Source of the DNA: Pseudomonadota bacterium
Lineage (GTDB): Bacteria; Pseudomonadota; Gammaproteobacteria; Burkholderiales; Burkholderiaceae_C
NCBI GenBank assembly: GCA_021845505.1
Contig: JAJZVU010000020.1
Coordinates: 1-62,223, forward strand
DNA length: 62,223 nt
Direction of reading: 5' to 3'
Within the stretch, counting starts at the first letter, position 1. Each line of letters starts with the position of its first letter. Below are positions 30,508-49,948 of the stretch, in pieces. Position numbers and translations under genes: made by a program. The notes below the pieces were generated by a model. The model was not told the origin of the DNA, made no database searches, and saw only the letters and a list, made by a program, of their open reading frames with translations.

Positions 30508-32799
30508 TCAGGCGAACTTGAACTGCTCGCGGCTGTTCCACAGCCCCCAGCTGTCGCCGACGTCGCCTTCCTCGCCGACCTTCCACGACTCGTCGAAGGC
30601 CTCGAAGTAAAACAGCTCCAGCCCCTCGGCGGCGGCCCAGCTCAGGGTATCGACCGCGTATCGCAGCGCGGCATCCGGGCTGGCCTGGGCCAGCCCCTGC
30701 GGCGAGCCGGCGCTGGGCCAGCCGGTCTCGGCGATGACCAGCCGCTTGCCCTGCAGCCAGCCGCGAGTGTCCTCGAGCATCGCCCGCAACCTCGGCTGCG
30801 CCTGTTCCACCGCGCAGCCTTCCCAGAAGGGATAGCAGTTCACGCCGACCACGTCGACGGCCTGCAGCAGCTGCTGGCGGCCGGCCCAGGCCGAATGGGC
30901 GTCGACGACCCCCACCGGGACTGCGGGCGCGCGCTTGCGGAAGTCCTGCACGCGCTCGACCAGTTGCTGCTCGGAGAGCTCGCCGCGCAGCAGGGTCTCG
31001 TTGCCCAGCATCGCCAGGTCGACCTGGGAGTCGCGCGCGAGCTCGACCAGGGCGTCGAACTCCCGCTGGTCGCGCAGCGGGTCGCCGCTGAGCCAGGCAC
31101 CGACCATGGTGCGGAACCCCTGGCTGCGCGCCAGCCGCGCCACCCGGTCATGGCCCTGGGTGCAGGAGAACAGCCGCAGCCACTGCGCATGCCGGCGCAG
31201 CCGCCGCAGGCGCTCGGCGATGCGTTCGGCGTCGAGCTGCGCCCCCGGTGACTGTCCGCCCAGGTAGGGGCCGAAGCACAGCCCGTGCACCCCGCGATCC
31301 AGGCATTGGCTCAGCTGGTTCTGCAGTTCGGCGCGCCCGCCGGCGTCCAGCCGCCACGGCGTGCCGGCCGTCCCGGGCGCTGCGGCGGCCGGCGCGTCGG
31401 CCGCCCGCACGGCCGACGGGGCGGCGCCCACGGCAGCCCGCTGCCGCTCCTGGCGCATGGCGTCGAGTTCGCGCCCCATCGTGCGGACGCTCGGCTCGTC
31501 GAGTTCATAGAACCACAGTCCGAGCATCGCCACCAGCGCGCCCGCGGCGGGAATCAGGCTGGCCATCAGCACCATGCCGTGCAGCGTGTAGGCGCTTTGG
31601 GCGACGTCGGGGCGGTAGCCGAAGTACGAAAGCAGGTAACCGGTTCCGGCGCCTCCGACGGCCCAGCCGAACTTCTGCGCGAACGAAGCGGCCGAGAACA
31701 CCAGCCCGGTGGCGCGTCGCCCGTTCTTCCACTCCGAGTAGTCGGCGGCGTCGGCGTACATCGCCCAGATGAGCGGCGCGGTCGGCGCGGCGAACAGGCT
31801 GATCAGGGTCTGCACGATCCACACCAGCGCCAGGTTGGACGCGGGCACGAAGTAGAAGGCCACCGAGGCCGCCGCGGCCAGGCCCATCGACAGCATGTAG
31901 AAGTTGCGCTTGCCGAATCGCCGCGACAGCGGCGAGGTGGCCATCACGCCGACGATGAAGGCCAGCGCCCCGCTGGTCATCACCGGACCGAAGTAGCGCC
32001 CGCCGTGCGGGACCACGTTCTGGAAGTAGTAGATGGCCACGGTGTTGCGGATGTTGGAGAACGTCAGCGCGGCGACTCCGACCACGCACAGCGCGATCCA
32101 CGGACGGTTGCGGCCCAGGTCGCGCAGGTCGCGCCCGAACGAGCCCTCGACCCGCGGCTCGGGCTGCACCCGCTCGCGGGTCATCGCGAAGGTCACCCAG
32201 TACAGCACCACCGCCAGCGCTGCGTACAGCGTCATGGTCACCTGCCAGCCGCGGGGAGAGTTCTCCGAGCCGCCGAAATGGCGCGCCAGCGGGAGCGCGG
32301 AGTTGACGATGATGAACACCGGCAGCAGCGCCATCACGAAGCGGTAGGAGCACACGCTGGTGCGCTCGCTGGAACTCGGGGTGAGCACCCCCAGCAGCCC
32401 CGAGTAGGGGATGTTCACCGCCGAGTAGGCGAGCATCATCAGACTCAGCGTGACGTAGGCATAGACCAGCTTGGCGGTACCGCTCAGGTCGGGGACGGTG
32501 AACGCCAGCACCGCGGTGACCGCCATCGGCAGCGCCATCCACAGCAGGTACGGGCGGAAGTGCCCCCAGCGGGTATGCGTGCGATCGGCGATCGCGCCGA
32601 TCACCGGGTCGATGAAGGCATCGCCGAAACGGGTGACGAACATCATCGTTCCCATCTGCGCCGCGCTGAGCAGGAACACGTCGGTGTAGTACTTGGCGAT
32701 GAAGATGGAAAACATCTGCCAGAACAGGTTCGACGCGAAGTCGCCGAAGCCGTAGCCGATCTTCTCGGCGACCGACAGGCGTGAAGACGGGCTGTTCAT
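30508..32799 (-). CDS. GPH-family sugar symporter fused to a GH17 domain
   Basis: A 763-residue fusion. Residues 1 to about 435 form a 12-segment GPH/MelB-type glycoside-cation symporter (GYGFGDFASNLFWQM, DAFIDPVIGAIADRTHTRWGHFRPYLLW, YADAADYSEWKNGRRATGLVFSA). A charged and Ala/Pro-rich linker (about 436-480) leads to a GH17 beta-1,3-glucanase-like domain with acid/base Glu601 (MLGNETLLRG) and nucleophile Glu691 (VIAETGWPS). GPH carriers have a cytoplasmic C-terminus, so hydrolysis would occur on the inside as oligomers enter. GGAGG ten bases before ATG 32799 supports the start. It has its own LacI box upstream and is separate from the ATPase gene by 160 bases. Confidence 0.9.
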   Translation of the reverse strand: MNSPSSRLSVAEKIGYGFGDFASNLFWQMFSIFIAKYYTDVFLLSAAQMGTMMFVTRFGDAFIDPVIGAIADRTHTRWGHFRPYLLWMALPMAVTAVLAFTVPDLSGTAKLVYAYVTLSLMMLAYSAVNIPYSGLLGVLTPSSSERTSVCSYRFVMALLPVFIIVNSALPLARHFGGSENSPRGWQVTMTLYAALAVVLYWVTFAMTRERVQPEPRVEGSFGRDLRDLGRNRPWIALCVVGVAALTFSNIRNTVAIYYFQNVVPHGGRYFGPVMTSGALAFIVGVMATSPLSRRFGKRNFYMLSMGLAAAASVAFYFVPASNLALVWIVQTLISLFAAPTAPLIWAMYADAADYSEWKNGRRATGLVFSAASFAQKFGWAVGGAGTGYLLSYFGYRPDVAQSAYTLHGMVLMASLIPAAGALVAMLGLWFYELDEPSVRTMGRELDAMRQERQRAAVGAAPSAVRAADAPAAAAPGTAGTPWRLDAGGRAELQNQLSQCLDRGVHGLCFGPYLGGQSPGAQLDAERIAERLRRLRRHAQWLRLFSCTQGHDRVARLARSQGFRTMVGAWLSGDPLRDQREFDALVELARDSQVDLAMLGNETLLRGELSEQQLVERVQDFRKRAPAVPVGVVDAHSAWAGRQQLLQAVDVVGVNCYPFWEGCAVEQAQPRLRAMLEDTRGWLQGKRLVIAETGWPSAGSPQGLAQASPDAALRYAVDTLSWAAAEGLELFYFEAFDESWKVGEEGDVGDSWGLWNSREQFKFA

Positions 32800-32861
32800 C
32801 GGCTGCAATCCTCCGGGGCGACCGCGGCCGGCGCGCATCGCGCGGCTGTCGCGGGTCGTTT

Positions 32862-32875
32862 TGAAAGCGCTTTCA
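32862..32875. promoter_or_regulatory. LacI-type operator before the transporter-GH17 gene
   Basis: TGAAAGCGCTTTCA is a perfect 14-base palindrome, 63 bases before the start codon at 32799. It matches the core of LacI-family operators and the other copies at 47655 and 49895, so it is assigned to the LacI-family protein at 47724. A convincing -35/-10 pair was not found here. Confidence 0.75.
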
Positions 32876-32959: not shown

Positions 32960-34024
<1,065 letters not shown>

Positions 34025-34064
34025 CGAGCCGCTCTCCTCGCCGCGCGGCACACCCGCGAGGCGA

Positions 34065-35006
34065 TCAACCCGGCGCGCACGCGCCGGCGACAAAGCGCTT
34101 GGGCGAGCGCGATTCGGTGTAGATGCCCCAGTGCTTCTCGGGCTCCAGCGGGTCGTCCGAGCCCTTCCACGCCTCGTCGAAGGCCTCGAAGACAAAGCAG
34201 CTGACCGCCGCGCGCCACGACCAGTCGAGCAAGGCGTGCAGGTACAGGCGCTGCAGGCCTTCGCTGGCGTTGGACGCGCAAAAGCCGCGTCCGTTGGCCG
34301 CGCTGGGCCAGCCGGCCTCGGTGATCACCACCTGCTTGCCGGCGAACGCCTGCGCCACCGCCTGGTAGTTGGCCTGGGTATGGTCCAGCGCCTGCTCGAT
34401 GCCCTTGTTCTCCCACACGGGATACGTGTGCAACGACACGAAGTCCACCTCGCGCCCGACCTCGCTTCCCAGTTCGCCCAACCAGGCGGCGTAGTTGTCG
34501 CACACCGTCAGCGGCAGGCCGAGGCCTCGCCGGGCCCGCTGCAACAACTCGCGCACCCGTGCCGGTTGCACCAGGTGGTCGGTCCATTCGACGCAGGCCT
34601 CGTTGCCCACCGCGCCCGCGATGACCACCTCGGGGTAACCCCGCGCCAGCTCGACCAGCCGATCGACCTCGGCCTCGTTGCGCAGGCGGTTGTCCCGCAA
34701 CACCTGCGCGGCATGGCGACCGCCCCAGGGACAGCGCGGATTGTCGACCTCGGCTTCGAGGTAGGCCCCCAGCAGCACGCGCAGCCGCAGCCCATGCCGC
34801 CGGATGACCTCGAGCACCCGCCGCGCGTGCGGTCCGCAGTCGTAGAGGCGGATGAGCCGCCAATGGCGCTGCAGCAGCAGCAGGTCCTCGAGGATCTGCT
34901 CCTGCGTGGGGTAGCTCGACGCGCCCGGGCTCTGGCCGGCGCGGTAGCCCGAATAGCAGATCGCCGGCAGGCAGGGGACCGGACGCGAGTCGGGTTGTTC
35001 AGCCAT
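34065..35006 (-). CDS. GH17 glucan hydrolase (cytoplasmic)
   Basis: A 313-residue GH17 protein with acid/base Glu136 (AVGNEACVE) and nucleophile Glu230 (ITEAGWPSA) on a TIM-barrel. Known GH17 enzymes act on beta-1,3 or mixed beta-glucans, as endoglucanases, exo-enzymes or transglycosylases. No signal peptide is present, so it is expected in the cytoplasm. It overlaps the next upstream gene by eight bases; an alternative start at 35027 would lengthen the overlap. It is the most divergent of the three GH17 domains here. Confidence 0.87.
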   Translation of the reverse strand: MAEQPDSRPVPCLPAICYSGYRAGQSPGASSYPTQEQILEDLLLLQRHWRLIRLYDCGPHARRVLEVIRRHGLRLRVLLGAYLEAEVDNPRCPWGGRHAAQVLRDNRLRNEAEVDRLVELARGYPEVVIAGAVGNEACVEWTDHLVQPARVRELLQRARRGLGLPLTVCDNYAAWLGELGSEVGREVDFVSLHTYPVWENKGIEQALDHTQANYQAVAQAFAGKQVVITEAGWPSAANGRGFCASNASEGLQRLYLHALLDWSWRAAVSCFVFEAFDEAWKGSDDPLEPEKHWGIYTESRSPKRFVAGACAPG

Positions 35007-35967
35007 GCTTGAGTCGACCCTGTTCATCCCACAGTCCCCAGGCCACGCCGACGTCGCCCTCGGCATCGGCCTTCCAGGCTTCGTCGAAAGCGGAGAAATA
35101 GAACATCGGCACGCCGTTGCGCCGGGCCCAGTCCTGGGCGTCGATGAAGTAGCGCATCGCATGGTCCTCGGAGGGCTGCGAGGCACCCTGCGCGGCTCCG
35201 CGGTCGGGCCAGCCGGTCTCGGCGATGAGCACCGGCCTGCCCGCCGCCGCCGCCACCGCGCGCAGGTACATGGACTGCATCGCCTGCAGCGCCTGCTCGC
35301 GCGGGCAGCCTTCCCAGAACGGGTAGCAGTTGATCAGCACCACGTCGCAGGCGGCGGTGACCCGCGGGTGCCTCTCGAACAGGAAGTAGGCGTCCACGTA
35401 GCCCACCGGCACGCCCGGCGCGCGTGCGCGCACTTCCTCGATGCACGCCAGCAGCGCCTGCTCGTCGAGATCTCCGCGCAGCAGCACCTCGTTGCCCACC
35501 GCGGCGATGTCGACCATGCCCGCGCCGGCGAGCCCGACCAGGCCCTCGATCTCCTCGCGGTTGCGCTCCTCGTCGCTGCCCAGCCAGGCGCCGACCAGGG
35601 TGCGCAGGCCGGCACGCCGCGCCAGCCGCGGCGTCGCCTGGTGCCCCAGGGTGCAGGAAAAGCTGCGGATCCACCGGGTGTACGGTCGGATCAGCTCCAG
35701 GCGCTCGGCGATCGCGGGTTCGGCCACCTGCATTCCGGGGCGTTGTCCCGGGCCGTAGGGGCTGAAGCACAAGCCGTGCAGGCCTTGTTCCAGGCTGTGC
35801 CTCCACGCGGCGGCCAGCTGCCGCGGATGCACGGACTGGCTCGCCGCGGTGCCCGGCCACGCAGCGGCAGCCCGCTGCCAAGCCTGCGCGACGCTGCCCG
35901 GCAGCGTGCTGTCGGCCATGGCGTCGGCCGCCGGCGGCGCGCCGCGAGCCGCCAGTTCACGCGACAT
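34999..35967 (-). CDS. GH17 glucan hydrolase, paralogue of the fused domain
   Basis: A 322-residue GH17 protein with Glu160 (AVGNEVLLRG) and Glu250 (IAETGWPDR). It is strikingly similar to the GH17 part of the transporter fusion (shared HGLCF-PY, INCYPFWEGC, VPVG-VDA and EGDVG-WGLW blocks), so one probably arose by duplication of the other. No signal peptide; cytoplasmic by prediction. Overlaps the GH16 gene by eleven bases and the following GH17 gene by eight, so translation is coupled. Confidence 0.88.
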   Translation of the reverse strand: MSRELAARGAPPAADAMADSTLPGSVAQAWQRAAAAWPGTAASQSVHPRQLAAAWRHSLEQGLHGLCFSPYGPGQRPGMQVAEPAIAERLELIRPYTRWIRSFSCTLGHQATPRLARRAGLRTLVGAWLGSDEERNREEIEGLVGLAGAGMVDIAAVGNEVLLRGDLDEQALLACIEEVRARAPGVPVGYVDAYFLFERHPRVTAACDVVLINCYPFWEGCPREQALQAMQSMYLRAVAAAAGRPVLIAETGWPDRGAAQGASQPSEDHAMRYFIDAQDWARRNGVPMFYFSAFDEAWKADAEGDVGVAWGLWDEQGRLKHG

Positions 35968-36886
35968 GGTCCGACTCCTGCCACGGCAGGCGACCCCTGC
36001 CGCGCGGCGCGGGGTCCGCGTAGCCCCCCTGGCGTTCGTAGACCCGGACGTAGTCGAGCATCAGGTCGGCCGGGAAGGGGGTCGAGCCATCGGGGCTTCC
36101 CGGGAAATTGCCCCCGACGGCGATGTTCATCACCAGGTAGAAGGGGCGATCGAACGGCGCCGGCCAGGCGTTGATCTCGTGCTCGCCCTGCGGGCGCACG
36201 CCGGCGCCTTCGCGTGTCCTGCTGCAACTCCACCAGAAATCCTGGCTCGCCCACTTCGTGCCGTCGAGCTCCCAGGAAATGCAGCCCGGCTCCCACTCGA
36301 CGGCGTAGCAATGCCAATCGCCGATGCCCGCGCCGGGCGGCATCCGCAAGCGGTGAGTGACCAGCTCGCGCTGCGGAAAGGCGCAGCCGAAGTGGATGCT
36401 GCCCAGCACCTCGTGGCCCGCGTCGCCGCACACCTCCATGACGTCGATCTCCCCCGAGGCCGCCCAGCGCCCGTAGTGCTCCTCCAGCGGCAGCAGCCAC
36501 AACGCCGGCCACAGGCCCTTGCCATGCGGGACGCGGGCGCGGAATTCGAAGCGGCCATAGCGCTGGGCGAACAGCGCGCTGCCGTCGGCGGCGCGGCTGC
36601 GCAGCCGCGCCGAGGTGTATTCGCAGCCCTCGCGCGACTGCCGCAGCGCACGGATGTGCAGCACGCTGTCGCGTACGAACACATTGCCGGGATCGGCGGT
36701 GTAGTGCTGCAGTTCCTCGTTGCCCCAGCCGGCGATCCACTCGCCGCTCGCGGGGTCGCGAAAGCCGTTGCCCTGCTCGCAATGCCACTTGCCCGCGTCC
36801 AGCGCGTCGCCGTCGAATTCGTCATGCCAGCGCAGCACCCAGCCCTCGCGCCGCAGCGCGTCCGGCCGACCCGTATCCACCCCCAT
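35957..36886 (-). CDS. GH16 beta-glucanase without signal peptide
   Basis: A 309-residue GH16 family protein (laminarinase-like) with the catalytic ExDxxE motif at Glu146-Asp148-Glu151 (GEIDVME). Other family blocks are WHDEFDG near the N-terminus, GWGNEELQHYT, GLWPALWLLP and the C-terminal FYLVMNIAVGGNFPGSP...YVRVYE. No signal peptide or lipobox is found and no earlier start is available, so it should act inside the cell on imported oligosaccharides. It pairs with the exported GH16 at 36905. Confidence 0.9.
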   Translation of the reverse strand: MGVDTGRPDALRREGWVLRWHDEFDGDALDAGKWHCEQGNGFRDPASGEWIAGWGNEELQHYTADPGNVFVRDSVLHIRALRQSREGCEYTSARLRSRAADGSALFAQRYGRFEFRARVPHGKGLWPALWLLPLEEHYGRWAASGEIDVMEVCGDAGHEVLGSIHFGCAFPQRELVTHRLRMPPGAGIGDWHCYAVEWEPGCISWELDGTKWASQDFWWSCSRTREGAGVRPQGEHEINAWPAPFDRPFYLVMNIAVGGNFPGSPDGSTPFPADLMLDYVRVYERQGGYADPAPRGRGRLPWQESDHVA

Positions 36887-36904: not shown

Positions 36905-37852
36905 TCAGGGAGTCATGTAGCGCACGTAGGCCACCTGCATCGTCTGGTCGAAGCCCGGCGCCGGCGTGCCGCCCAGGTTGCCGCCGATCGCCAGGTTCAT
37001 GATCAGGTAGTACTGGCTGTAGGTGGTGCCGTAGGGCCAGATCGACGAGGCCGGGAAGCTTCCGCCGCTGGTCGGAGTGCAGCTCATCGTGCTCTGGGTG
37101 CAGGTCATCAGCGGCTGGTTGTCGATCGCGAACTCGATCGACCCGGGCGTCCACGCCAACTGGTACAGGTGGAAGCTCGATACCGGGGTGGACAGGGTCG
37201 CCTTCTGGTATTCGTACGAATCGGTATAGGGGTTCGTGTTGCCCGAGGGCATGTGGAAGGTGCTCTGGATCAGCGAGTCCTGGCCCGCGAAATACTGGCC
37301 CAGCCACTCCGCCATGTCGAGTTCGCCGCCGCTCGGCCAGGTCGGCTGCGCGCCGGGGTTGGGCGCCACCGGGCTGGTTCCGGGCAACAGCCAGATCGCC
37401 GGCCACGCCCCCGCTGCGGTGGGCAGCGCGGCCTTGACCTCGAGAAACCCCGGCTTGCTCAGGTCGACCGTCTGCACCGAGGTGATCTTGGCCGACGAGT
37501 AGGTGCAGGGCGATCCGCTGCAGGTGAAGTTGGTCACGCTGGGATCGGCGAAGCCGTGCAGGTCCAGCACACCGCCGGAAACCGTGGCGTTGCTCGCCAG
37601 GTAGTACTCCTCCTCGTTGTTGCCCCAGCCGGGGTTGTTGTACGGCGGGCCGCTGCCGTTGCCCACCTCGGTGGCCCAAAGGGCCGGGTTGGGCGTGCCG
37701 CCGGGATCGGTGGCGAAGTCGTCCTGCCACACCGTCGTCTTGTAGGCGGACGCGAGCCCGCTGCCGCTGCTGCTGCTCGACGGAATCGACCCCGAGCCAC
37801 AACCCGCCAGCAGCACCGCCGCCAGCGCAACCGCCAGTCCTGTCTTCACCAT
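36905..37852 (-). CDS. GH16 beta-glucanase lipoprotein
   Basis: A 315-residue GH16 protein with a lipoprotein signal (lipobox LLAGC, Cys18), a Ser-rich linker, and the catalytic motif Glu177-Asp179-Glu182 (GGELDMAEW). Substrate-binding blocks include NNEEEYYLA and YLIMNLAIGGNLGGTP. It should be anchored in the envelope, facing the periplasm or the surface, and cut beta-1,3-glucan outside the cytoplasm. AGGAG upstream of ATG 37852 sets the start; the longer frame to 37999 is not coding. Confidence 0.9.
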   Translation of the reverse strand: MVKTGLAVALAAVLLAGCGSGSIPSSSSSGSGLASAYKTTVWQDDFATDPGGTPNPALWATEVGNGSGPPYNNPGWGNNEEEYYLASNATVSGGVLDLHGFADPSVTNFTCSGSPCTYSSAKITSVQTVDLSKPGFLEVKAALPTAAGAWPAIWLLPGTSPVAPNPGAQPTWPSGGELDMAEWLGQYFAGQDSLIQSTFHMPSGNTNPYTDSYEYQKATLSTPVSSFHLYQLAWTPGSIEFAIDNQPLMTCTQSTMSCTPTSGGSFPASSIWPYGTTYSQYYLIMNLAIGGNLGGTPAPGFDQTMQVAYVRYMTP

Positions 37853-37895: not shown

Positions 37896-40214
37896 CTACT
37901 GCTGCGCCGCGCCGCCCGCCGGCGAACGCGCGACGCCGAGCGCATGCGCGGCCACCACCACGCGCGTGCCGTCGCTGAAGCGCACCTGCAGCGGCGCATC
38001 GCCGGCGTTGTAGGCCAGGTGGGTCACCTGGCCGTCGGCCCGGCGAAACACCGCGTACAGAGGGGTGTCGGCGCTGACCGAGAAATCCGGCCGCCCCATG
38101 GATTGCAGGCTGCGGATCCAGAAATACGCATGCGTGCGGCTGTCCCCGCCCTCGGTCGAACCCTGGGAATTCCAGTGGGCCAGCGCCTTGCCGGGGAAGG
38201 CCAGCGCGCGGTACTCGGCGAACACGTCCTGCCAGATGTCCGACGGCGTGCCGTCGGACATGCCGGCGTGGGCGTAGCGCTGGCTCATGTCGCGCATGGC
38301 GCCGAAGAAGCCGGCGATGTAGTCCGGGTCGCGCCCCAGGTAGGTCGACGCGGTGGTGATGGGCAGCAGGTTGATGCCTTGCACCTCCCGCGGGTTCTGC
38401 GTCCACCAGGTGTTGTAGGCGTACTTGTCGCCGAACACCTGCGCCGCCAGCACGCGGTGGTACTGCGGCGCGAACACGATGTGGTGCAGGTCGAACCAGT
38501 AGTCGTCGATCGAATGCACCTCGGTGGTGTAGAGGTAGATCCCCAGGTCCTCGAGCCGGGTGTTGCCGGTGGCGGCGCCCCAGAAGATCAGCCCGGCCCA
38601 GGCGTTGACGGCTTCGGAGGAGGACTCCTGGTTGTTGCCGTCCTCCATCGCCGCGTCGCCGCTGGCCCACGAATGTCCCTCGTAGGGGTCGAAGTTGCGC
38701 AGGAAGGGGTAGCCGGCCAGGCCGTGTCTGGCGGTGGCGATGTCGTCGACCAGCAACTGCACCATGCCGCCCCAGCGCGCAGGCTGCGCCCACTGCGGGT
38801 CGTGCAGCGCCAACTGCGCCGCCGCGTTGATCCAGTAGCCGTAGTGGAAATGGTGATCGTTCATGTGGGTCACGCTTCCGTACTCCGACGGATAGCCCAG
38901 CGTGGTTCCCAGCGTGCGATCGACGACGAAGTAGCTGCTCGAGCTGCTGCCCGAGAAGAACTGCTCGAAATGCCGCTTGAGCATGCCCTCCAGGTCGCGT
39001 GCGTCGGACATGCGGTGTTGGGCGAAGGCGATGTCCATCAGCTGCGCGGCGCGCCCCAGGCCCTTGCCGACCCAGTAGGTTCCGTTGCCTTGCAGGCCGA
39101 AGGCCTCGGGCATTTTCGCGACGTCGCCGCCGAGCAGGCTGTCGACCCGGCTGCCTCCGGCGGCCGCTGGCAGCCGCGGCCAGAAGGGCACGATGCCGTG
39201 GTAGGCCAGGCTGGTGCGGAAATGGCTCGCCGCCAGCAGGCGGACGCGTCCACGCACGCTGTCGAAGCCGAGCTTGCGCAGGCCGGCGATGCGCTGGCCC
39301 CACCACAGGTTGGGGAACAGCCCGACCAGCGGCACCGTCTGCGCGCCCTGCATCGAGCGCGTCGTGAAATCGAAGTCGGTGAGCACCCGGCTGCTCGCCC
39401 GGTCGTACTTCCAGTGCACTCGCGTGCCGGTGACGAAGGCGTAGGCATGGGCCGCGAACAACGCCAGCGTCGACGCGCGGGTGTCGGGCAGCGCGGCGAT
39501 CGAGAAGTAGCCGCTGCCCTGCGGCAGGTCGAGCTGCAGCTCGGTGGGACTGAGCCAGCGCGCCGTGCCGCCCTGCGGCGGATAGACGGCCCACGCCTGG
39601 CCGCCTGTGCGGAACACCTGGCCGGCCTCGCCGAGAGCCTGCGTCACCGGCTCGCGCGGCTGTGCCAGCTGCAACGTCACCCGACGCGAATCGTCGCGGT
39701 AGTAGCTGAAGGGGCTGCCCTGCACCACGGTCGCCAGCAGGGTGTGCCCGCCCCCCGACATCGCCACGCTGGCGCTCCAGTCGCCGTGCCCCGCGAGCAG
39801 CGCCGCTGCGGGCTTGAAGTCCGGCTGCACGGTGATCTGCGCCCGGTGCGGCCATACCACCTGGGCGTAGCCGTCGGGCGCGGTCTGCACGTGCTGGGTC
39901 GGCACGCCGATCTGCCAACCCTGCGGTACCGCGCGGTAGCTCACCGGGATGGCGTACAGCGGGTACGACCAGCGGGTGAACATCACCGACGAATACCACT
40001 GGTTGGTCGGCGCCGCCTGTGCCGCCATCGCCGGTGTGCGGTAGCGCGCCACCGGCGGCTTGTGGCCGGCGGGGCTGAACAGCCCGCCGCGGTGGGGCAT
40101 CGCGTAGTAGCCGCCGAGCCCGTCGGCGATGCGCGGGTTGGCCTGCGAGGCCCATGCCGGCAGCGCCGCGAGCACCGCAGCTGCGCCGAGCACGGCCCTG
40201 GTGATGGTTGCCAT
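37896..40214 (-). CDS. GH81 endo-beta-1,3-glucanase (secreted)
   Basis: A 772-residue GH81 enzyme that attacks long beta-1,3-glucan chains. A Sec signal peptide occupies about residues 1-23 (ending AWASQA). Catalytic-site residues seen are Asp453 (MNDHHFHYGYW) and Glu530/Glu534 (EDGNNQESSSEAVNAW). The family N-terminal block PTNQWYSSVMF is also present. GAGGAG six bases before ATG 40214 fixes the start; the extra 122 codons upstream are antisense to the porin region. It lies 80 bases after the porin gene. Confidence 0.93.
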   Translation of the reverse strand: MATITRAVLGAAAVLAALPAWASQANPRIADGLGGYYAMPHRGGLFSPAGHKPPVARYRTPAMAAQAAPTNQWYSSVMFTRWSYPLYAIPVSYRAVPQGWQIGVPTQHVQTAPDGYAQVVWPHRAQITVQPDFKPAAALLAGHGDWSASVAMSGGGHTLLATVVQGSPFSYYRDDSRRVTLQLAQPREPVTQALGEAGQVFRTGGQAWAVYPPQGGTARWLSPTELQLDLPQGSGYFSIAALPDTRASTLALFAAHAYAFVTGTRVHWKYDRASSRVLTDFDFTTRSMQGAQTVPLVGLFPNLWWGQRIAGLRKLGFDSVRGRVRLLAASHFRTSLAYHGIVPFWPRLPAAAGGSRVDSLLGGDVAKMPEAFGLQGNGTYWVGKGLGRAAQLMDIAFAQHRMSDARDLEGMLKRHFEQFFSGSSSSSYFVVDRTLGTTLGYPSEYGSVTHMNDHHFHYGYWINAAAQLALHDPQWAQPARWGGMVQLLVDDIATARHGLAGYPFLRNFDPYEGHSWASGDAAMEDGNNQESSSEAVNAWAGLIFWGAATGNTRLEDLGIYLYTTEVHSIDDYWFDLHHIVFAPQYHRVLAAQVFGDKYAYNTWWTQNPREVQGINLLPITTASTYLGRDPDYIAGFFGAMRDMSQRYAHAGMSDGTPSDIWQDVFAEYRALAFPGKALAHWNSQGSTEGGDSRTHAYFWIRSLQSMGRPDFSVSADTPLYAVFRRADGQVTHLAYNAGDAPLQVRFSDGTRVVVAAHALGVARSPAGGAAQQ

Positions 40215-40294: not shown

Positions 40295-41695
40295 TCAGAA
40301 GGTGACCAGCGCGCCCAGCGTGAAGGTCTCTCCCGACGTGCTCACCCAGGGATTGATGCCGGAGAACTGCCCGTTGCTGGGCATGCTCAGCGGCGCCGGA
40401 CCGAGGTGGCCGAAGCGCACGTAGCCGAAGCCCCCGTAGATGCTCAGGTTGCGGTAGATCTCCGGCATCTTGCGGTACAGCCCCAGGTTGGTGATGACGG
40501 CCCAGTTGCCCTGGCCCCACTGCGTCGGGTTGCTGGTATGTCCGCGCCCCAGGTAGACCATGCCCGCGGTATAGGTCCACAACCCGCGGTAGTGGCTCAG
40601 GCCGAGCAAGAAGTCATTCGTCGATGCCGAGTAGCCCGGCTGGTACGAGGCTCCGTTGTAGGTGGCGGTGGAATAGTTGAAGCCCTGCGAGGGGTACAGG
40701 CAACCCGGCTGGCCGTTGCCGACGTTGGTGACATAGCCGCAGGTCACCGCTTCCCCGGACCAGTAGCTGTGCCGCAGTCCCCAGGTCAGCATCCACTGCG
40801 GCGAGAACCAGTGGTCGCCCTCGAGGATGGCCACGCTCTGCCGCGGCAGCGAACTGTAGACATTGGTGGTCGTGCCGCCGGCGCCGCCCGGCCCCAGCAC
40901 CGGCAGGTTGGACGCGCCGACGAAGGGCCCCTTGCCCCACGACGACTGCCCGGCGCCGTGGCTGGTCTCGAAGGTGAACTCGATCAGGTTGTCGCGGTTG
41001 GAGTACTGGGCGAAGAGCTCGAGCATGCGCGGGGTCGGCGAAAGGTCGGGCCCCTGGGGTCCGATGTACTGGTTGTAGGAGTGGTTGGTGGCGTAGGTCG
41101 CCTCCAGGGTCAGCTTGCCGATGGGCAGGAAGAAGGTGCGGCTGGTGAAGCGCACCGCCTCGGGGAACAGGCCGAATCCGGCGCCGGTTTCGCTCCACGC
41201 GGTGGACAGCCCGATCGGGTAGCTGAACGCATCCTGGCGCGACCAGGCGCGCGCCAGCTGGGTTCCCACCATCAGCGTGCCCAGCGAGGGGTAGGAGATG
41301 CCGACGTATTTCTCGAACCAGTTCTGGCCGACGATGTCGTTGGATCCGTTGCGCAGCCGCTTGGTCAGCACCCCCTCGATCTTCAACCCGTTGTCGAATT
41401 CGTGGTGCAGATTGGCGGTCAGCTGGAACATCGGGGTCGGCGTGGTCACCGTGCCCAGGCTGGTCGGCCTGCACTTGGTCGAGCCCGGCAGCACCTCGCG
41501 CGGGTCGCCATAGCAGATCGGCGGCGGGTTGGTGTTGTTGTCCACCGTGCCGACGTTGTTGGCGACGCCGATCTCGTCCTTGCCGAATCCCGACAGGCTC
41601 AGCGGCCCGAAGTCCGCCGCGTGGGCGGCGACCGACATCCCGGCCAGCAGCAGCGCGATGCAGGCGATTGGTTTCACGATCATCTCCTTGGTCAT
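40295..41695 (-). CDS. Outer-membrane porin of the glucan locus
   Basis: A 466-residue beta-barrel protein: signal peptide (IVKPIACIALLLAGMSVAAHA), then alternating amphipathic strands with many Tyr/Trp/Asn girdle residues, ending in Phe (FTLGALVTF), the usual C-terminal assembly signal. It is most likely the passage for glucan oligosaccharides, since no TonB receptor is in the locus. ATG 41695 lies next to the GH30 stop without a ribosome site; AAGGAG fits better with a GTG at 41677 or ATG 41683, so the mature protein is clear but the start is not. Confidence 0.8.
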   Translation of the reverse strand: MTKEMIVKPIACIALLLAGMSVAAHAADFGPLSLSGFGKDEIGVANNVGTVDNNTNPPPICYGDPREVLPGSTKCRPTSLGTVTTPTPMFQLTANLHHEFDNGLKIEGVLTKRLRNGSNDIVGQNWFEKYVGISYPSLGTLMVGTQLARAWSRQDAFSYPIGLSTAWSETGAGFGLFPEAVRFTSRTFFLPIGKLTLEATYATNHSYNQYIGPQGPDLSPTPRMLELFAQYSNRDNLIEFTFETSHGAGQSSWGKGPFVGASNLPVLGPGGAGGTTTNVYSSLPRQSVAILEGDHWFSPQWMLTWGLRHSYWSGEAVTCGYVTNVGNGQPGCLYPSQGFNYSTATYNGASYQPGYSASTNDFLLGLSHYRGLWTYTAGMVYLGRGHTSNPTQWGQGNWAVITNLGLYRKMPEIYRNLSIYGGFGYVRFGHLGPAPLSMPSNGQFSGINPWVSTSGETFTLGALVTF

Positions 41696-41696
41696 G

Positions 41697-43049
41697 TCAG
41701 TTGCCGGGGGCGTCGGCGAGAAAGGTGGCGATGGCATGCGGTGGCAGGGCCGCCGCGTAGTCGGCGGCAGCGATGCGCAGCCGGAACTGCAGCGGCCGGT
41801 CCTGGCGGTTGAGCACCACGATGGCCAGCTCGCCGTCGCCGCCGACGAAGGCGGTGGCTTCGATGGCCTCGCTCGACGGCGCGCACAGCACGCGGCGCCA
41901 GCCGGGGCGGATGTAGCGCGCGAAATGGCCGATGCAGGCGTACGAGGGCTGGGGCAGCCAGCGGTCGGCAGCCGCGTCGACCAGCACCGGCGCGCTGCAG
42001 TAGTTGCCCACGTGGTTGGGTCCGCCCTGCCGGTCGAGGAACAGGTTCCAGTCGATCCAGCCCACGCTGCCGTGGTCGAGGTCGGCGAGCATCGATTGCG
42101 CGTAGCGCTCGCCGACCTCCCAGGAGTCGGCATGCGGGCCGCCCTCCTGGCAGGCCTCGGTGAGCAACAGCTGCTTGTCGGGCCAGGCCTCGCGCACCCT
42201 TTGCACGTTGCGCCAGCAAGGCTCGCCATACCAGTGGAAGCCCAGGCCCCACAGGTACTCGCGCGCTCGCGCGTCGCCGTACAGCACGCTGGCGCGCTCG
42301 GCCAGCAGGTCGCGGTTGTGATCCCACCCGACGATGCGAACCCCGTGCAGGCCGGCCCGCCGCAGCGCCGGGCCGAGGTGGGCGCCGATGAACTCGGCCT
42401 CCTCCTCGGCGGTGTACAGGCAGGAATCCCAGCGCTGGGCGGCCATCGGCTCGTTCTGCGGGGTCACTCCCCAGATGTCCAGTCCCTGCTCGGCGCAGGC
42501 CTGGATGAAGCGCACGAAGCATTCGGCCCATGCCTGGCGGTACTGGGGCAGCAGCTTGCCGCCGCCGTTCATGCTGCGGTTGTCCTTCATCCAGGCCGGC
42601 GGGCTCCACGGCGACACCAGCAGCCGCAGCGGTTGCGCGGCGACGCGGCGCGCGGCGTGCACCAGCCGCAGCAGCGCCCGCTCGTCGCGCTCGATGCTGA
42701 AGCCGCGCAGTTGCAGGTCGCCCTCGGCCTCCAGGTGCGAGTAGTTGCCCAGCGCGAAGTCGCAACTGCCCATCGGCATGCGGCACAGCGAGTAACCGTG
42801 GCCGCCGTCCGCGGGACAGGCGAAGTACGCCCGCAGCGCCGCGTCGCGGGCCTGCGGCGAAAGCGCCAGCCAGTTGACCGCCGCCGCCTCGGTGAAGGCC
42901 CCGCCGAATCCCTCCAGCGCCTGCATGCGGCGCGTCGGGTCGACCCGCAGCAGCGGGCCGCCGGTGTCGGGCTGGCGCAGCGGCGGCAGCGCCGGCTGTT
43001 CGCTCAGGCGCGACGCCGTGTCGCGTGCGGTGAGGACGGTGCGGAGCAT
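41697..43049 (-). CDS. GH30 family glycoside hydrolase
   Basis: A 450-residue GH30 enzyme (glucosylceramidase-like TIM barrel plus beta domain) with acid/base Glu200 (GVTPQNEP) and nucleophile Glu298 (LLLTEACQ). Members act as beta-1,6-glucanases, beta-glucosidases or beta-xylosidases; in a beta-1,3-glucan locus removal of beta-1,6 branches, as in laminarin, is the best guess. No signal peptide. The start at 43049 (MLRTVLTARD) is preferred to the Arg-rich extension to 43181. Confidence 0.88.
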   Translation of the reverse strand: MLRTVLTARDTASRLSEQPALPPLRQPDTGGPLLRVDPTRRMQALEGFGGAFTEAAAVNWLALSPQARDAALRAYFACPADGGHGYSLCRMPMGSCDFALGNYSHLEAEGDLQLRGFSIERDERALLRLVHAARRVAAQPLRLLVSPWSPPAWMKDNRSMNGGGKLLPQYRQAWAECFVRFIQACAEQGLDIWGVTPQNEPMAAQRWDSCLYTAEEEAEFIGAHLGPALRRAGLHGVRIVGWDHNRDLLAERASVLYGDARAREYLWGLGFHWYGEPCWRNVQRVREAWPDKQLLLTEACQEGGPHADSWEVGERYAQSMLADLDHGSVGWIDWNLFLDRQGGPNHVGNYCSAPVLVDAAADRWLPQPSYACIGHFARYIRPGWRRVLCAPSSEAIEATAFVGGDGELAIVVLNRQDRPLQFRLRIAAADYAAALPPHAIATFLADAPGN

Positions 43050-43095
43050 GGCGGCTTGGCGGGCTGCGCTGTGCTGGTGGCTCGGGTCGTCGCGC

Positions 43096-44454
43096 TCACG
43101 CGGCGGCGCGCTGGCGCATGGCCAGCAGGAAGTCGCGATACCACGCCGCGCTGGCCTTGGGAGTGCGGCGCTGGCTGGCATAGTCCACGTGCACGATGCC
43201 GAAGCGCTTGGCGTAGCCGCTGGCCCATTCGAAATTGTCGAGCAGGCTCCACACCATGAAGCCGCGCAGCGGAACCCCGGCCGCCAGCGCCTGCGCCGCG
43301 GCGGCGATGTGGCGGGCGATGTAGCGGGTGCGCGCGGGGTCGTCGACCCGGCCGCCGACGCATTCGTCGCGGAACGCAGCGCCGTTCTCGGTCACGTACA
43401 GCGCGGGCACCGGGTAGTCGCGATGCAGGCGCAGCAGGAGCTCGGTGAGGCCTCCGGGATAGACCTCCCAGCCCATGTCGGTGAGTTCCGCGCCGAGCGC
43501 CTTCGGGTCGACCGCGCCGGAGGCGCCGACCACGCTTCGCGAGTAGTAGTTCACTCCGAGGAAATCCATCGGCGTGGCGATCAGTCCGAGGTCGCCATCG
43601 GCCACCGTCGGCGCGTCGGCTCCGAACTCCTCCAGCATGTCGGCCGGGTAGCTGCCGCGGAACAGCGGGTCCATGTACCAGCGCACCAGCCTGCCGTCCT
43701 CGATGCGCGCGCGCGTCCGGTCCTGCGGCGATTCGCTGGCCGGCTGCACGGGCGCCAGGTTGAGCACGATGCCCAGGTCGCAGCCCACGCCGTCGGCGCG
43801 CAGCGCGCGCAGCGCCATCCCGTGGCTGAGCAGCAGATGGTGCGCCACCTGCAGCGCCACCGCGCGCTGTTGCAGGCCGGGGGCGAAGATCCCGGTCTCG
43901 TGTCCCAGCACCGCCTGCACGAAGGGCTCGTTGTGGGTGGTCAGCGAGCGCAGCCTGTCGCCCAGCCGTCGCGCGACCCCGCGCGCATAGTCGACGAAGC
44001 GCTGCGCGGTGTCCCGCGCCGCCCAGCCGCCGCCTTCCTGCAGCGCCTGCGGCAGGTCCCAGTGGTTGAGGGTCAGGTGCGGTGCGATGCCGCGTTGCAG
44101 CAGTCCGTCGACCAGGCGCTCGTAGAAATCCAGGCCGCGCGGGTTCCAGGCACCGTGCCCCTGCGGCTGCACGCGCGGCCACGACACCGAGAAGCGATAG
44201 GCGTTGACCCCCAGCCGCGCCACCAGGTCCAGGTCCTCCTGCCAGCGGTGGTAGTGGTCGCAGGCGAGCGCGCCATCGCTGCCGTCGGCGATGGCGCCGG
44301 GGCGGCGGCAGAACACGTCCCAGATGGAGTCGGCGCGGCCATCCTCGCGCACGGCGCCCTCGATCTGGAACGCACTGGTGGCCACGCCCCAGGTGAAGTC
44401 GGGAGGGAAACGGGCGGCCAGCGTGGCGGGATCGAGCGATGGGTCTGGTTGCAT
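43096..44454 (-). CDS. GH1 beta-glucosidase
   Basis: A 452-residue GH1 enzyme with the N-terminal signature FTWGVATSAFQIEGA, acid/base Glu176 (THNEPF) and nucleophile Glu356 (LYVTENGAA). It would release glucose from short beta-glucosides in the cytoplasm. Length is normal for a bacterial GH1. ATG 44454 (MQPDPSLDP) is used; the frame upstream runs antisense through the permease gene. It follows the permease with a 38-base gap. Confidence 0.94.
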   Translation of the reverse strand: MQPDPSLDPATLAARFPPDFTWGVATSAFQIEGAVREDGRADSIWDVFCRRPGAIADGSDGALACDHYHRWQEDLDLVARLGVNAYRFSVSWPRVQPQGHGAWNPRGLDFYERLVDGLLQRGIAPHLTLNHWDLPQALQEGGGWAARDTAQRFVDYARGVARRLGDRLRSLTTHNEPFVQAVLGHETGIFAPGLQQRAVALQVAHHLLLSHGMALRALRADGVGCDLGIVLNLAPVQPASESPQDRTRARIEDGRLVRWYMDPLFRGSYPADMLEEFGADAPTVADGDLGLIATPMDFLGVNYYSRSVVGASGAVDPKALGAELTDMGWEVYPGGLTELLLRLHRDYPVPALYVTENGAAFRDECVGGRVDDPARTRYIARHIAAAAQALAAGVPLRGFMVWSLLDNFEWASGYAKRFGIVHVDYASQRRTPKASAAWYRDFLLAMRQRAAA

Positions 44455-44492: not shown

Positions 44493-45335
44493 TCACTTGA
44501 GCGCCCCCTGGGTCAGTCCGTCGACCAGGCGCCGCGAGAACACCGCGAACACCGCCAGCAGCGGCACGGTGGCGATGGCCGCGCCGACCATCAGCGCGCC
44601 CCACTGGGTGTCCACCGGGTTCTGCAGGCTGCGCAGCGCCAGCGGCAGGGTGTACATCGAAGGGGAGCGCATGACGATCAACGGCATGAGGAAGTTGTTC
44701 CAGGACGCGATGAAGCTGATCAGCCCCAGCGTGGCCAGCGCCGGGGCGGCCAGCGGCAGCACGATGCGCCAATAGATGGCCCATTCGCCGCAACCGTCCA
44801 GGCGCGCGGCCTGGAGCAGCTCGACCGGCACCGCCGACGCGATGTACTGGCGCATGAGCAGGATGCCGAAGGCGCTGGCCGCGCCGGGCACGTACAGCGC
44901 GCGCGGGCGGTCGATCCAGCGCAGAGCGTCCATCACCATGAAGGCCGGGATCATGTTCATGAACTGCGGCACCAGAAGGGTCGCCAGCACCAGCAGGAAC
45001 AGCGCTCGCTTGAAGGCGAACTCGAAGCGCGCGAAGGCGTATCCCGCCATCGAGCAGAACAACAGGGTCAGCGCGGTGGAAGCGCAGGCCACGTACAGGC
45101 TCAGGCCGAGGTTGCGCCAGAAATCGGTCGCTGCCAGCAGGATGCGCAGGTTGGCGGCCAGGTGGCTGCCGAACCACAGCGGCGGCGGCGAGGCGAAGAT
45201 CGCGCTGCGACGGTGGGTCGCGAACGCCAGCATGAAATACAACGGCGAGGCCATGGCCAGCGCGCCCAGCCCGACCAGCGCGCAGGCCGCGGCGCGCCCG
45301 CCCCGCGGGCCTTGCAGCACTGCGCGCGCGCTCAT
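44493..45335 (-). CDS. Sugar ABC importer permease (MalG type)
   Basis: A 280-residue inner-membrane permease with about six transmembrane segments and the cytoplasmic EAA loop (LLQAARLDGCGEWAIYWRIVLPLAAPAL). MalG-like features are the N-terminal PLYFMLAFATH and C-terminal GALMVGAAIATVPLL. It pairs with the permease at 45332 (ATGA overlap). The very long open frame reaching 47219 is the real gene plus an unrelated upstream shadow. Confidence 0.92.
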   Translation of the reverse strand: MSARAVLQGPRGGRAAACALVGLGALAMASPLYFMLAFATHRRSAIFASPPPLWFGSHLAANLRILLAATDFWRNLGLSLYVACASTALTLLFCSMAGYAFARFEFAFKRALFLLVLATLLVPQFMNMIPAFMVMDALRWIDRPRALYVPGAASAFGILLMRQYIASAVPVELLQAARLDGCGEWAIYWRIVLPLAAPALATLGLISFIASWNNFLMPLIVMRSPSMYTLPLALRSLQNPVDTQWGALMVGAAIATVPLLAVFAVFSRRLVDGLTQGALK

Positions 45336-46300
45336 GCTGCCGGCTCCCGCGTGCGCAACGCCAGCCCGGTGAGCCAGGTGGCCAGCGCGACGACCACGAA
45401 CAGCAGCCAGGACATCGCGCTGGCCCCGCCGAAGTCGTCGAAGTCGAAGGCCTCGCGGTAGAAGTACAGCGCGGCGGTCATGCCGGCCTGGTCGGGCCCG
45501 CCGTGGCCGCCGGTCAGGATGAAGGCTTCGTCGAACAGCTGCAGGCCGCCGATGACGCTCAGCGTGACCGCGAACAGCATCATCGGCCGCAGACCCGGCA
45601 GCGTGACATGCCGGAAGCGCTGCCAGCGGCCCGCGCCGTCGAGCGCGGCCGCTTCGTGCAACTCGGCCGGTATGGCCTGCAGCGCCGCCAGGTACAGCAC
45701 GGTGTTGAATCCCAGGTAGCGCCAGAACACCAGCAGCGCGATCGCCGGCTTGAGGGTGGCCGGGCGGCCGAGCCAGTCGACCGGGTGGCTGGGCAACAGG
45801 TGGCCGATCGCCGGCAAGCGGGCCAGCGCGGCCAGGGCCTGGTCGATCAAGCCGTGATGGGCGGCGAACAGCGAGCTGAACAGGATGGAGATGGCCACCG
45901 TCGAGGTGACGTAGGGAACGAAATACGCCGCCGAGAACAGGTCGCGCAGGCGGCGCGAGGTCGATTGCAGGAACACCGCCAGCGGGATCGCCACCAGGTG
46001 CTGGGGCACCCCTGCGACCACCGCCAGCCACAGGGTGTTGCGCAGGGACTTCCAGAACCAGGGGTCGCGCAGCGCGAACGCGAAGTTGCGCAGGCCGACG
46101 AAGTGCATCGATGCCAGACCGGCGGCCGGCTGCCAGGACTGGAACGCCAGCACCAGCGAAAAGCCCAGCGGGAACAGACCGAAGACCAGGAACAGCAGGA
46201 CGAACGGGCCGAGCAGCAGGTACGGCGCGACGGCGGGCGACAGCCGAGGCAGCCTGCGGCGGCACCCGGGCAGGTTCTCCCGGCCGGCGAGGCTGGCCAT
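45332..46300 (-). CDS. Sugar ABC importer permease (MalF type)
   Basis: A 322-residue inner-membrane permease. Segments such as PYLLLGPFVLLFLVFGLFPLGFSLVLAF and the EAA loop (ELHEAAALDGAGRWQRFRHVTLPGLRPM) are typical of carbohydrate uptake type 1 permeases. It overlaps the binding-protein stop by one base and the next permease by four. Substrate is inferred to be a beta-1,3-gluco-oligosaccharide. Confidence 0.92.
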   Translation of the reverse strand: MASLAGRENLPGCRRRLPRLSPAVAPYLLLGPFVLLFLVFGLFPLGFSLVLAFQSWQPAAGLASMHFVGLRNFAFALRDPWFWKSLRNTLWLAVVAGVPQHLVAIPLAVFLQSTSRRLRDLFSAAYFVPYVTSTVAISILFSSLFAAHHGLIDQALAALARLPAIGHLLPSHPVDWLGRPATLKPAIALLVFWRYLGFNTVLYLAALQAIPAELHEAAALDGAGRWQRFRHVTLPGLRPMMLFAVTLSVIGGLQLFDEAFILTGGHGGPDQAGMTAALYFYREAFDFDDFGGASAMSWLLFVVVALATWLTGLALRTREPAA

Positions 46301-47577
46301 CACGCCTGCCCCACCCGCTGTTGCAGCAGGCGCTGTGCCCGCGCCAACGACTGTGCCGCGGGCACCCCTCGCTCCAGCACGTCGTACAACGCGCTGGCGA
46401 CCACCTCGCTGGCGAAGGCGTCCTGGGAGTCGAGGCGCACGGCGCGGATGTTCCACGCAGCGGTGCGCCACAGCCGGCGCGCCCGCTGCCCGCCCAGATA
46501 GGCGATGGGGGAGTCGAAAAAGGGATCGTCGTAGGTGCGCACCAGCGCCGGAAAGGCGTCGACGCTGCGGAAGGCCTGGATCTGGCGCCTGGGGTCCAGC
46601 GTGAGCAGCCGCAGGAAATCCCACGCCAGCGCCTTGCGCCAGCGTGGCACGCGGGCGGGGATCGCGAGAAAGCTGCCGCCGTAGGCCACCCACGAGCCAG
46701 CCGGCAGTTGCGCGGCCCGCCACAGGCCGCGGCTGCGCGGGGCCAGCCAGGTGGCCAGGTGGCCGGCCAGCCAGGCGCCCGACAGCAGGGTGGCGATGCG
46801 GCCGCGACGGATGGCGCTGGCCCAGGCCGGCGACCAGGCGCGAACGCGCGCGTCCAGTCCGAGGCGGCGCACCTGCGCGGCGAGTTCGAAGCCGCGCGCA
46901 AAGCGCCGCTCGTGCAGCGCAGGCCTGCCGGCCGCATCGAAATACACCCCGGCGCCGGCGGGCAGGCCGCTGCGGATGACGATGTCCAGCACGTCGCCGG
47001 CGTCGGCGACCAGCCAGGCCCCGGTGCTGCGGCGGATCGCCTGGCCCGCGCGCAGGAAGCCCTGCCACGACGACTGCATCTCGGCAGGCGCGACGCCTGC
47101 GGCATGCGCCAGGTCGCCGCGGTACAGCAACGTGCCGGGGCCGATGTCCACCGGCGCGGCCACCACGCTGCCGTCGCGCTGCCGCGCCTGGTCGTACGCA
47201 TAGGCGGTGTAGTCGGCACGGTGCGCGGCGATGCCGTACCGCGGCTGCGCCAGGTCCTGCAGCCCGCCGCCGCGGGCGAAGCGGCCGAGGTAGCCGACCT
47301 CCACCGCCATCACGTCGGGCATGTCCTCGCCGGTGGCCAACGCGGTCAGCATCGCGGTGTGGTGGTCGCCGACCTGGCGGCTGACCACTTGCAGCGGCAC
47401 TGTCGGGTGCAGGCCGCGCCAGGCCGGCAGCGCCTGGCGCGCCACCTGGTCGAGCGAGGGGTAGGCGGCCACCACCAGCGCCCTCGCCCGCAGCCCGCGG
47501 CCGCGGGCGCAGCCGCCCAGCGCCGCGCCCGCGCAGGCCGAGCCCAGTGCTTGGAGGAATGGCCGACGAGGCAGCAT
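46300..47577 (-). CDS. Sugar ABC importer binding lipoprotein
   Basis: A 425-residue family-1 solute-binding protein. The N-terminus has RRPFLQALGSACAGAALGGCARG, a Tat-like twin-Arg signal followed by a lipobox-type GGC. The body shows the usual ALPAWRGLHPTVPLQVV and GPGTLLYRGDLAHAAGV blocks. It is more Arg-rich than most binding proteins, in line with local base composition. It is the first gene of the main glucan operon and lies behind the promoter at 47674-47702. Confidence 0.88.
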   Translation of the reverse strand: MLPRRPFLQALGSACAGAALGGCARGRGLRARALVVAAYPSLDQVARQALPAWRGLHPTVPLQVVSRQVGDHHTAMLTALATGEDMPDVMAVEVGYLGRFARGGGLQDLAQPRYGIAAHRADYTAYAYDQARQRDGSVVAAPVDIGPGTLLYRGDLAHAAGVAPAEMQSSWQGFLRAGQAIRRSTGAWLVADAGDVLDIVIRSGLPAGAGVYFDAAGRPALHERRFARGFELAAQVRRLGLDARVRAWSPAWASAIRRGRIATLLSGAWLAGHLATWLAPRSRGLWRAAQLPAGSWVAYGGSFLAIPARVPRWRKALAWDFLRLLTLDPRRQIQAFRSVDAFPALVRTYDDPFFDSPIAYLGGQRARRLWRTAAWNIRAVRLDSQDAFASEVVASALYDVLERGVPAAQSLARAQRLLQQRVGQA

Positions 47578-47654: not shown

Positions 47655-47702
47655 TTTGAAAGCGGTTTCAAACATTCTTGAGGCGGCCGCCTCGGGTGTC
47701 AA
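47655..47702 (-). promoter_or_regulatory. Glucan operon promoter with LacI-type operator
   Basis: Reading on the minus strand: a perfect -35 TTGACA (47702-47697), a 17-base spacer, then -10 AAGAAT (47679-47674), followed at once by the operator TTTGAAACCGCTTTCAAA (47672-47655). The operator covers the expected start of transcription, a repressor layout. The spacer itself contains a perfect 14-base palindrome GAGGCGGCCGCCTC (47680-47693). The start codon of the binding-protein gene is 78 bases beyond the operator. Confidence 0.75.
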
Positions 47703-49894: not shown

Positions 49895-49948
49895 TGAAAG
49901 CGCTTTCATCCCATTGAAAACGATTTCGTACCGAGGCGAGCGCTTTCT
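49895..49948. promoter_or_regulatory. Three LacI-type boxes at exact 20-base steps
   Basis: Box 1 TGAAAGCGCTTTCA (49895-49908) is perfect. Box 2 TGAAAACGATTTCG (49915-49928) and box 3 GGCGAGCGCTTTCT (49935-49948) are degenerate. Their centres fall at 49901.5, 49921.5 and 49941.5. They sit between the divergent hydrolase (start 49793) and lipoprotein (start 50011) genes and could govern both. A clear -35/-10 pair was not identified. Confidence 0.65.

Follow-up and report, generated by a model that had tools for sequence, protein, structure and literature searches.

A GPH-type carrier fused to a GH17 domain in a β-1,3-glucan cluster, most likely formed separately from the Formosa fusion

Why would a bacterium join a sugar carrier and a glycoside hydrolase in a single polypeptide, and has this happened more than once? 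The question is raised by one gene in a stretch of 62,223 nucleotides, which we refer to as the window in the following. On its minus strand, a single open frame of 763 residues runs from 32799 to 30508. The longest possible reading starts with an ATG at 32838 and yields 776 residues, but all residue numbers given here are counted from the methionine at 32799. The gene and its parts are as follows:

30508..32799, minus strand: carrier-hydrolase fusion of 763 residues, assigned from profile, structure and alignment evidence
residues ~1–457 of the fusion: GPH/MelB-type symporter
residues 457–485 of the fusion: linker
residues 486–763 of the fusion: GH17 domain

The carrier part matches the Pfam family MFS_2 (PF13347) at residues 15–435 with 347.5 bits (cut-off 27). 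It also matches the NCBIfam gph model TIGR00792 with 388.5 bits (cut-off 231.35) over positions 1–435 of the 437 in the profile, a full-length match that makes it a member of the GPH:cation symporters; the best-scoring subfamily model is YagG, yet its score stays under the model's own cut-off (399.8 vs 610). The Pfam family Glyco_hydro_17 (PF00332) is found at residues 686–762 with 35.2 bits (cut-off 28.2), through the C-terminal part of the profile only; this match, a TIM-barrel fold and two catalytic glutamates place the domain in GH17. In a sequence search of the PDB, residues 8–441 matched MelB and residues 541–748 the GH17 glucanosyltransferase RmBgt17A. The catalytic pair is present as Glu601, within an NE motif (600–601), and Glu691, within ETGW (at 691), and both residues are invariant across 27 aligned fused proteins, i.e. 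the window's and 26 from other loci. An earlier sequence-only reading of this DNA had proposed just this arrangement, a complete GPH/MelB-type carrier and a GH17 domain in one frame with catalytic glutamates at 601 and 691, and the profile matches and the alignment confirm it.

In the AlphaFold model of the fusion (mean pLDDT 83.1), the helices can be read as 12 membrane segments, the number given by the sequence-only reading, followed by a further helix at 435–457 and a TIM barrel from residue 486. The pLDDT drops below 50 at residues 457–477, as for a disordered linker, and also at 1–3 and 736–748; with a pTM of 0.59, the model does not fix how the two domains are placed relative to each other. 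Foldseek returned MelB as the top match of the fusion model and RmBgt17A as the first GH17 protein, and the GH17 domain matches the fold of 4wtr with a TM-score (target) of 0.85. In MelB-type carriers, the N- and the C-terminus both lie in the cytoplasm. Counted over the first ten loops, 17 lysines and arginines are inside and 5 outside. The MelB fold match, the 12-helix model and these loop charges support a cytoplasmic position of the GH17 domain, as had been predicted. A crude hydropathy scan counted 11 segments and, taken alone, labels the C-terminus as outside; the segment it misses is the helix modeled at 364–392. On the fold and the loop charges, we reject a periplasmic GH17 domain.

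The joint frame itself is genuine. A sequencing error or hidden stop between the domains, which the first reading had named as one point on which it would fail, is unlikely, as relatives have the fused frame intact and both domains are under selection. Among 60 genomes including its own, eight (its own counted) contain a single frame over all or nearly all of the query, and one, G017, contains the carrier only. Carriers at least 55% identical to that of the window form 27 non-redundant rows, 23 of them fused (the window's and 22 others), three unfused (L011, L050 and L053) and one (L052) that ends at a contig end and counts as undecided; the fused share leans high, because the search started from the fusion. 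As three of the 26 decided carriers do without the fused domain, the carrier does not require it. A named genome with the fusion is that of Paucibacter sp. KBW04 (L051). When 369 genomes sampled from the class of the window, its own included, were searched at cut-offs of E 1e-40 and E 1e-60, the window's fusion was the sole fused one among the matches listed. The pN/pS values, obtained alike in seven of seven ortholog pairs, are 0.20–0.38 for the carrier, 0.47–0.68 for the faster-evolving GH17 domain and a near-neutral 0.71–1.15 for the linker, which differs in length and sequence among relatives. Both domains are thus constrained by purifying selection, and the tether between them is free.

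As a kind of protein, the fusion is known. The claim that no carrier-hydrolase fusion had been described proved wrong: an MFS::GH17 protein, FbGH17b, was published in 2018. As documented in the portions of Unfried et al. (2018; PMC6246565) consulted, this Formosa protein, which was cloned, has its GH17 part behind an N-terminal 12-TM MFS transporter. The same portions report a measured exo-β-1,3-glucosidase activity that acts on laminarin only when it is debranched and converts oligosaccharides to glucose; they describe such fusions as common in marine Flavobacteriia and suggest a coupling of hydrolysis and uptake. Further fusions, from gammaproteobacterial MAGs of SAR92, Luminiphilus and SAR86, appear in the consulted parts of PMC10108472 (Microbiome 2023), so that Pseudomonadota are included among the known carriers of this architecture. 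A word search of PMC8371827 and PMC10322874 did not find the term 'fusion'.

What appears to be new in the window lineage is the origin of the fusion. For comparison, the Formosa type was represented by L091, from a MAG titled Formosa sp. Hel1_33_131, and not by the published record itself. The window carrier shares 24% identity with that of L091 and 20–25% with 52 fused carriers of the Formosa type, against 41–45% with the seven unfused carriers nearest to it outside its clade (L145, L170, L172, L171, L149, L173 and L105). Likewise, the L091 carrier is 45–48% identical to unfused carriers outside its clade, e.g. L195–L204. For a carrier tree, 173 frames were reduced to 133 by removing contained copies and to 74 rows at 80% identity; five long rows (L168, L123, L177, L176 and L148) were then left out and L091 added, giving 70 rows. 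In this tree, the window and Formosa types fall into two deep clades (supports 99/99 and 100/100) with unfused members in each; one row taken as unfused on the Formosa side, L108, is truncated by the start of its contig, and L211 is a cut copy of L212, whose whole gene encodes 860 residues. Constraining the 30 fused carriers to one clade costs 1511 log-likelihood units (p-AU 3e-10). Constraining 51 fused GH17 domains together costs 138 units (p-AU 8e-5) in a 94-row tree in which several Pseudomonadota branches are unresolved; L188 was left out, and the stand-alone rows include three of GH17b (L025_1946, L012_516 and L028_549).

The window thus has the Formosa-type architecture, with the carrier N-terminal and the GH17 domain C-terminal, but its carrier, in a separate deep clade, probably does not descend with the Formosa carriers from a single fusion. 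Given the different GPH subfamily and the rejection of one common clade, two or more origins of the fusion are the most likely history. In the window lineage, a different GPH subfamily would have been joined to a GH17 domain of the same subfamily, so that a different importer appears to have been used to build the same machine again. A single ancient fusion with later carrier swaps is less likely.

On the Formosa side, two mixed forms are found. In L212 (3312–5891), a carrier from an otherwise unfused clade is followed by a GH17 domain of the fused clade, and in L188/L214 (L214: 2384–4846), a fused-clade carrier is followed by a tyrosine-bearing GH17 domain of the stand-alone clade; in both, either halves were exchanged or further fusions took place. 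A state before fusion is plausibly seen in the order of G071, where 9 of 41 genomes matched. There, the Formosa-type carrier (up to 57% identity) and GH17 (52–55%) lie at separate places, and none of the matches listed among the 41 genomes covers both halves. The nearest carriers, 56–57% identical and found in four genomes, sit in frames of 480–544 residues, one with stops inside the match. A separate case is L089, from a MAG titled Rhodobacteraceae, whose fused carrier nests inside Flavobacteriaceae, through either horizontal transfer or a misassigned contig.

The neighborhood of the window's fusion gene bears on its substrate and comprises the following features:

32960..34030, minus strand: UgpC/MalK-type sugar ABC ATPase, immediately upstream of the fusion gene (NCBIfam profile)
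34065..35006, minus strand: stand-alone GH17b, no signal peptide seen (Pfam; signal by eye)
34999..35967, minus strand: stand-alone GH17a, no signal peptide seen (Pfam)
35957..36886, minus strand: GH16 glucanase without signal peptide (Pfam; signal by eye)
36905..37852, minus strand: GH16 glucanase with a lipoprotein-type signal, LLAGC (Pfam; signal by eye)
37896..40214, minus strand: GH81 endo-β-1,3-glucanase with signal peptide (Pfam; start and signal by eye)
40295..41683, minus strand: outer-membrane-porin-like protein with signal peptide (name and start by eye; no Pfam family found in a search of 40295–41569)
41697..43181, minus strand: GH30 glycosidase (Pfam)
43096..44454, minus strand: GH1 β-glucosidase, no signal peptide seen (Pfam; signal by eye)
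44493..46400, minus strand: sugar ABC permease region (BPD_transp_1 at residues 451–626; second permease domain presumed)
46300..47577, minus strand: sugar ABC substrate-binding protein (SBP_bac_1), presumably the first gene of the operon
47724..48797, minus strand: LacI-family regulator that presumably binds the three operators listed below
other side of the fusion gene, plus strand: glucose 6-phosphate dehydrogenase, glucokinase, RpiR-type regulator, glucose 6-phosphate isomerase and methylglyoxal synthase (all by eye)

In the direction of transcription, the fusion gene is thus preceded by the ABC binding protein, the permease region, GH1, GH30, the porin-like protein, GH81, the two GH16 enzymes, GH17a, GH17b and the ABC ATPase. 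GH17a is this genome's closest other match to the fused GH17 domain (46% identity). From the company of GH81, two GH16, two further GH17, GH30 and GH1, we infer a β-1,3-glucan as the substrate. With GH17a, GH17b, one GH16 and GH1 lacking signal peptides and GH81 and the other GH16 bearing export signals, a cytoplasmic finishing stage is plausible.

Within this cluster lie three copies of a putative operator:

32862..32875: LacI-type operator, TGAAAGCGCTTTCA, 62 bases before the start codon of the fusion gene
47657..47670: second copy, ahead of the presumed ABC/glycosidase operon
49895..49908: third copy, between the start of a minus-strand frame (49793) and that of a plus-strand frame (50011)

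Exact TGAAANCGNTTTCA occurs three times in the window (mean of 0.00 in shuffles) and three times in the whole 3.7-Mb, 84-contig assembly, all within this glucan cluster, which points to a LacI-type regulon of very small size that includes the fusion gene. The operator is found within 400 bases before the carrier at six of 22 related loci (L032, L034, L035, L038, L048 and L049) and is absent there in the other 16. Beside the third copy, the plus-strand frame at 50011–50838 encodes 275 residues with no Pfam match.

A natural counterpart of the fusion exists in the same genus. G017 (91% complete) encodes a carrier of 464 residues, 84% identical to the window's, with no GH17 domain behind it; a search of this genome with the fusion as query gave no GH17 match at E 0.001, although the missing part could hide one. 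On L048, which has the same length of 43,112 bases as the contig of this carrier and is apparently identical with it, GH81, a GH16 and an ABC ATPase precede the carrier (by eye), and the operator is present. In the cluster of G017 (L213/L048), the carrier and the operator are thus kept, and the two stand-alone GH17 genes are absent together with the fused GH17 domain, as expected for parts of one pathway.

Does the fused domain cut the incoming sugars or rebuild them? As a β-1,3-glucanosyltransferase, it would rearrange incoming oligosaccharides by branching or lengthening them, and so trap or store them. The GH17 part has its best solved-structure match in a transferase, RmBgt17A, and the sections of PMC11005184 consulted describe MlGH17B, 53% identical to the GH17 module of FbGH17B, as a transglycosylase. 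Citing Qin et al., the same sections state that replacing the acceptor-site Tyr, Trp or Glu of RmBgt17A with Ala abolished transfer, with transglycosylation lost in Tyr102Ala, and that FbGH17B has Met in place of the Tyr. Trp659 and Glu660 of the window's domain are conserved, but the Tyr-Trp-Glu set of the RmBgt17A/MlGH17B type is broken at the position of MlGH17B Tyr136, which aligns to Leu604. This key tyrosine is missing from 74 of 77 fused GH17 rows (51 Leu, 20 Met and 3 His, against 3 Tyr), whereas it is retained in most of the 61 stand-alone rows that come from Bacteroidota or unlabeled genomes and show the W/E/E pattern (51 Tyr, 8 Val, 2 Leu). Tyrosine is rare in stand-alone Pseudomonadota rows, too (33 Val, 19 Leu, 1 His and 1 Tyr; n = 54), so there the residue does not mark the fusion. 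FbGH17b, moreover, is reported as a hydrolase in the consulted part of PMC6246565. We therefore regard transfer as improbable; judging from the tyrosine position in the fused rows, hydrolysis is the likelier activity of the domain.

We consider it probable that the fusion is the import-and-cut component of a cluster for β-1,3-glucan of the laminarin type, with hydrolysis in the cytoplasm near the exit of the carrier and an origin independent of that in Formosa. The exported GH81 and GH16 would release laminari-oligosaccharides outside the inner membrane, the GPH symporter would carry them across it, and the C-terminal GH17 domain would hydrolyze them close to the exit. Other cytoplasmic glycosidases would finish the conversion to glucose, which would feed the neighboring glucose-catabolism genes. 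An enzyme held at the exit would be expected to keep the local oligosaccharide concentration low and thereby favor net uptake. One-way uptake through cutting at the exit, as put forward in the sequence-only reading, is a reasonable idea, and a similar one was raised in 2018. Why a fused copy would be needed is not obvious, however, since GH17a, GH17b, one GH16 and GH1, all without signal peptides, could do the cutting.

It is very unlikely that the domain mainly senses or regulates, binding cytoplasmic oligosaccharide and throttling the carrier in the manner of the IIA domain of LacS. The layout of a carrier with a cytoplasmic C-terminal domain is indeed shared with LacS, but the invariance of both catalytic glutamates in the 27 aligned fused proteins speaks against such a role, and a linker of variable length and sequence is more in keeping with a tether than with a fixed regulatory contact.

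A fusion without kinetic gain, which would merely fix expression or membrane placement as a neutral or mildly useful merger of neighboring genes, seems to us rather unlikely, if not strikingly so. Such a merger would be easy, since carrier and GH17 genes share a neighborhood in some relatives (L050 and some genomes of the order of G071); unfused versions persist, and a separate GH17a without signal peptide coexists with the fusion. Against it stand the same fusion in the same order in two distantly related carrier subfamilies and the mixed forms, with a fused-type GH17 on another carrier in L212 and a stand-alone-type GH17 on a fused-type carrier in L188/L214. Fused forms also dominate among the close carriers (23 of 27 rows), in a sample somewhat biased to fused ones. 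Returning to the import-and-cut reading, we give about even chances to its stronger form, in which such a machine evolved at least twice from two GPH subfamilies that are only 20–25% identical, each of which gained a domain of the same GH17 subfamily at its cytoplasmic end, and in which transport and cutting are truly coupled.

If this is true, the exchanged halves (the carrier in L212 and the enzyme in L188/L214) and the near absence of the transferase tyrosine would reflect selection for hydrolysis tethered at the exit. In the literature searched, as far as the consulted portions go, a single characterized example stands for carrier-hydrolase fusion in glycan uptake, and for this a benefit is only suggested. 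An apparent second origin, a same-genus relative with the carrier unfused and the fusion of Paucibacter sp. KBW04 make the benefit of tethering open to comparison in the laboratory.

Several known systems share features with the fusion. MelB and E. coli YagG belong to the same GPH family and have in common with the window carrier its entire fold, but they transport other substrates. Neither of them is known to have an enzyme domain. LacS of Streptococcus is a GPH carrier with a cytoplasmic C-terminal regulatory IIA domain; the window's fusion likewise has an extra cytoplasmic C-terminal domain, which is a catalytic hydrolase instead. MlGH17B of Muricauda lutaonensis shares with the window's fusion the conserved positions of the catalytic Glu, Trp and Glu; it differs in being a stand-alone enzyme, in bearing Tyr136 where the window has Leu604, and, according to the consulted sections of PMC11005184, in acting as a transferase on substrates above DP4. 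A parallel in design is FbGH17b (FORMB_24740) of Formosa sp. Hel1_33_131, with an N-terminal 12-TM GPH-type carrier and a C-terminal GH17 domain in the same order, the latter of the same subfamily (45% identity between the window and L091), in a laminarin cluster that also contains GH30 and another GH17. The differences lie in the carrier, which in Formosa belongs to another GPH subfamily (the 24% identity noted above), and in the tyrosine position, which is Met in Formosa and Leu in the window. They extend to the surrounding machinery: where the Formosa PULs, as far as described in the sources consulted, contain TonB-dependent and SusD-like proteins, the window cluster has an ABC system, a porin-like protein and a LacI-type regulator.
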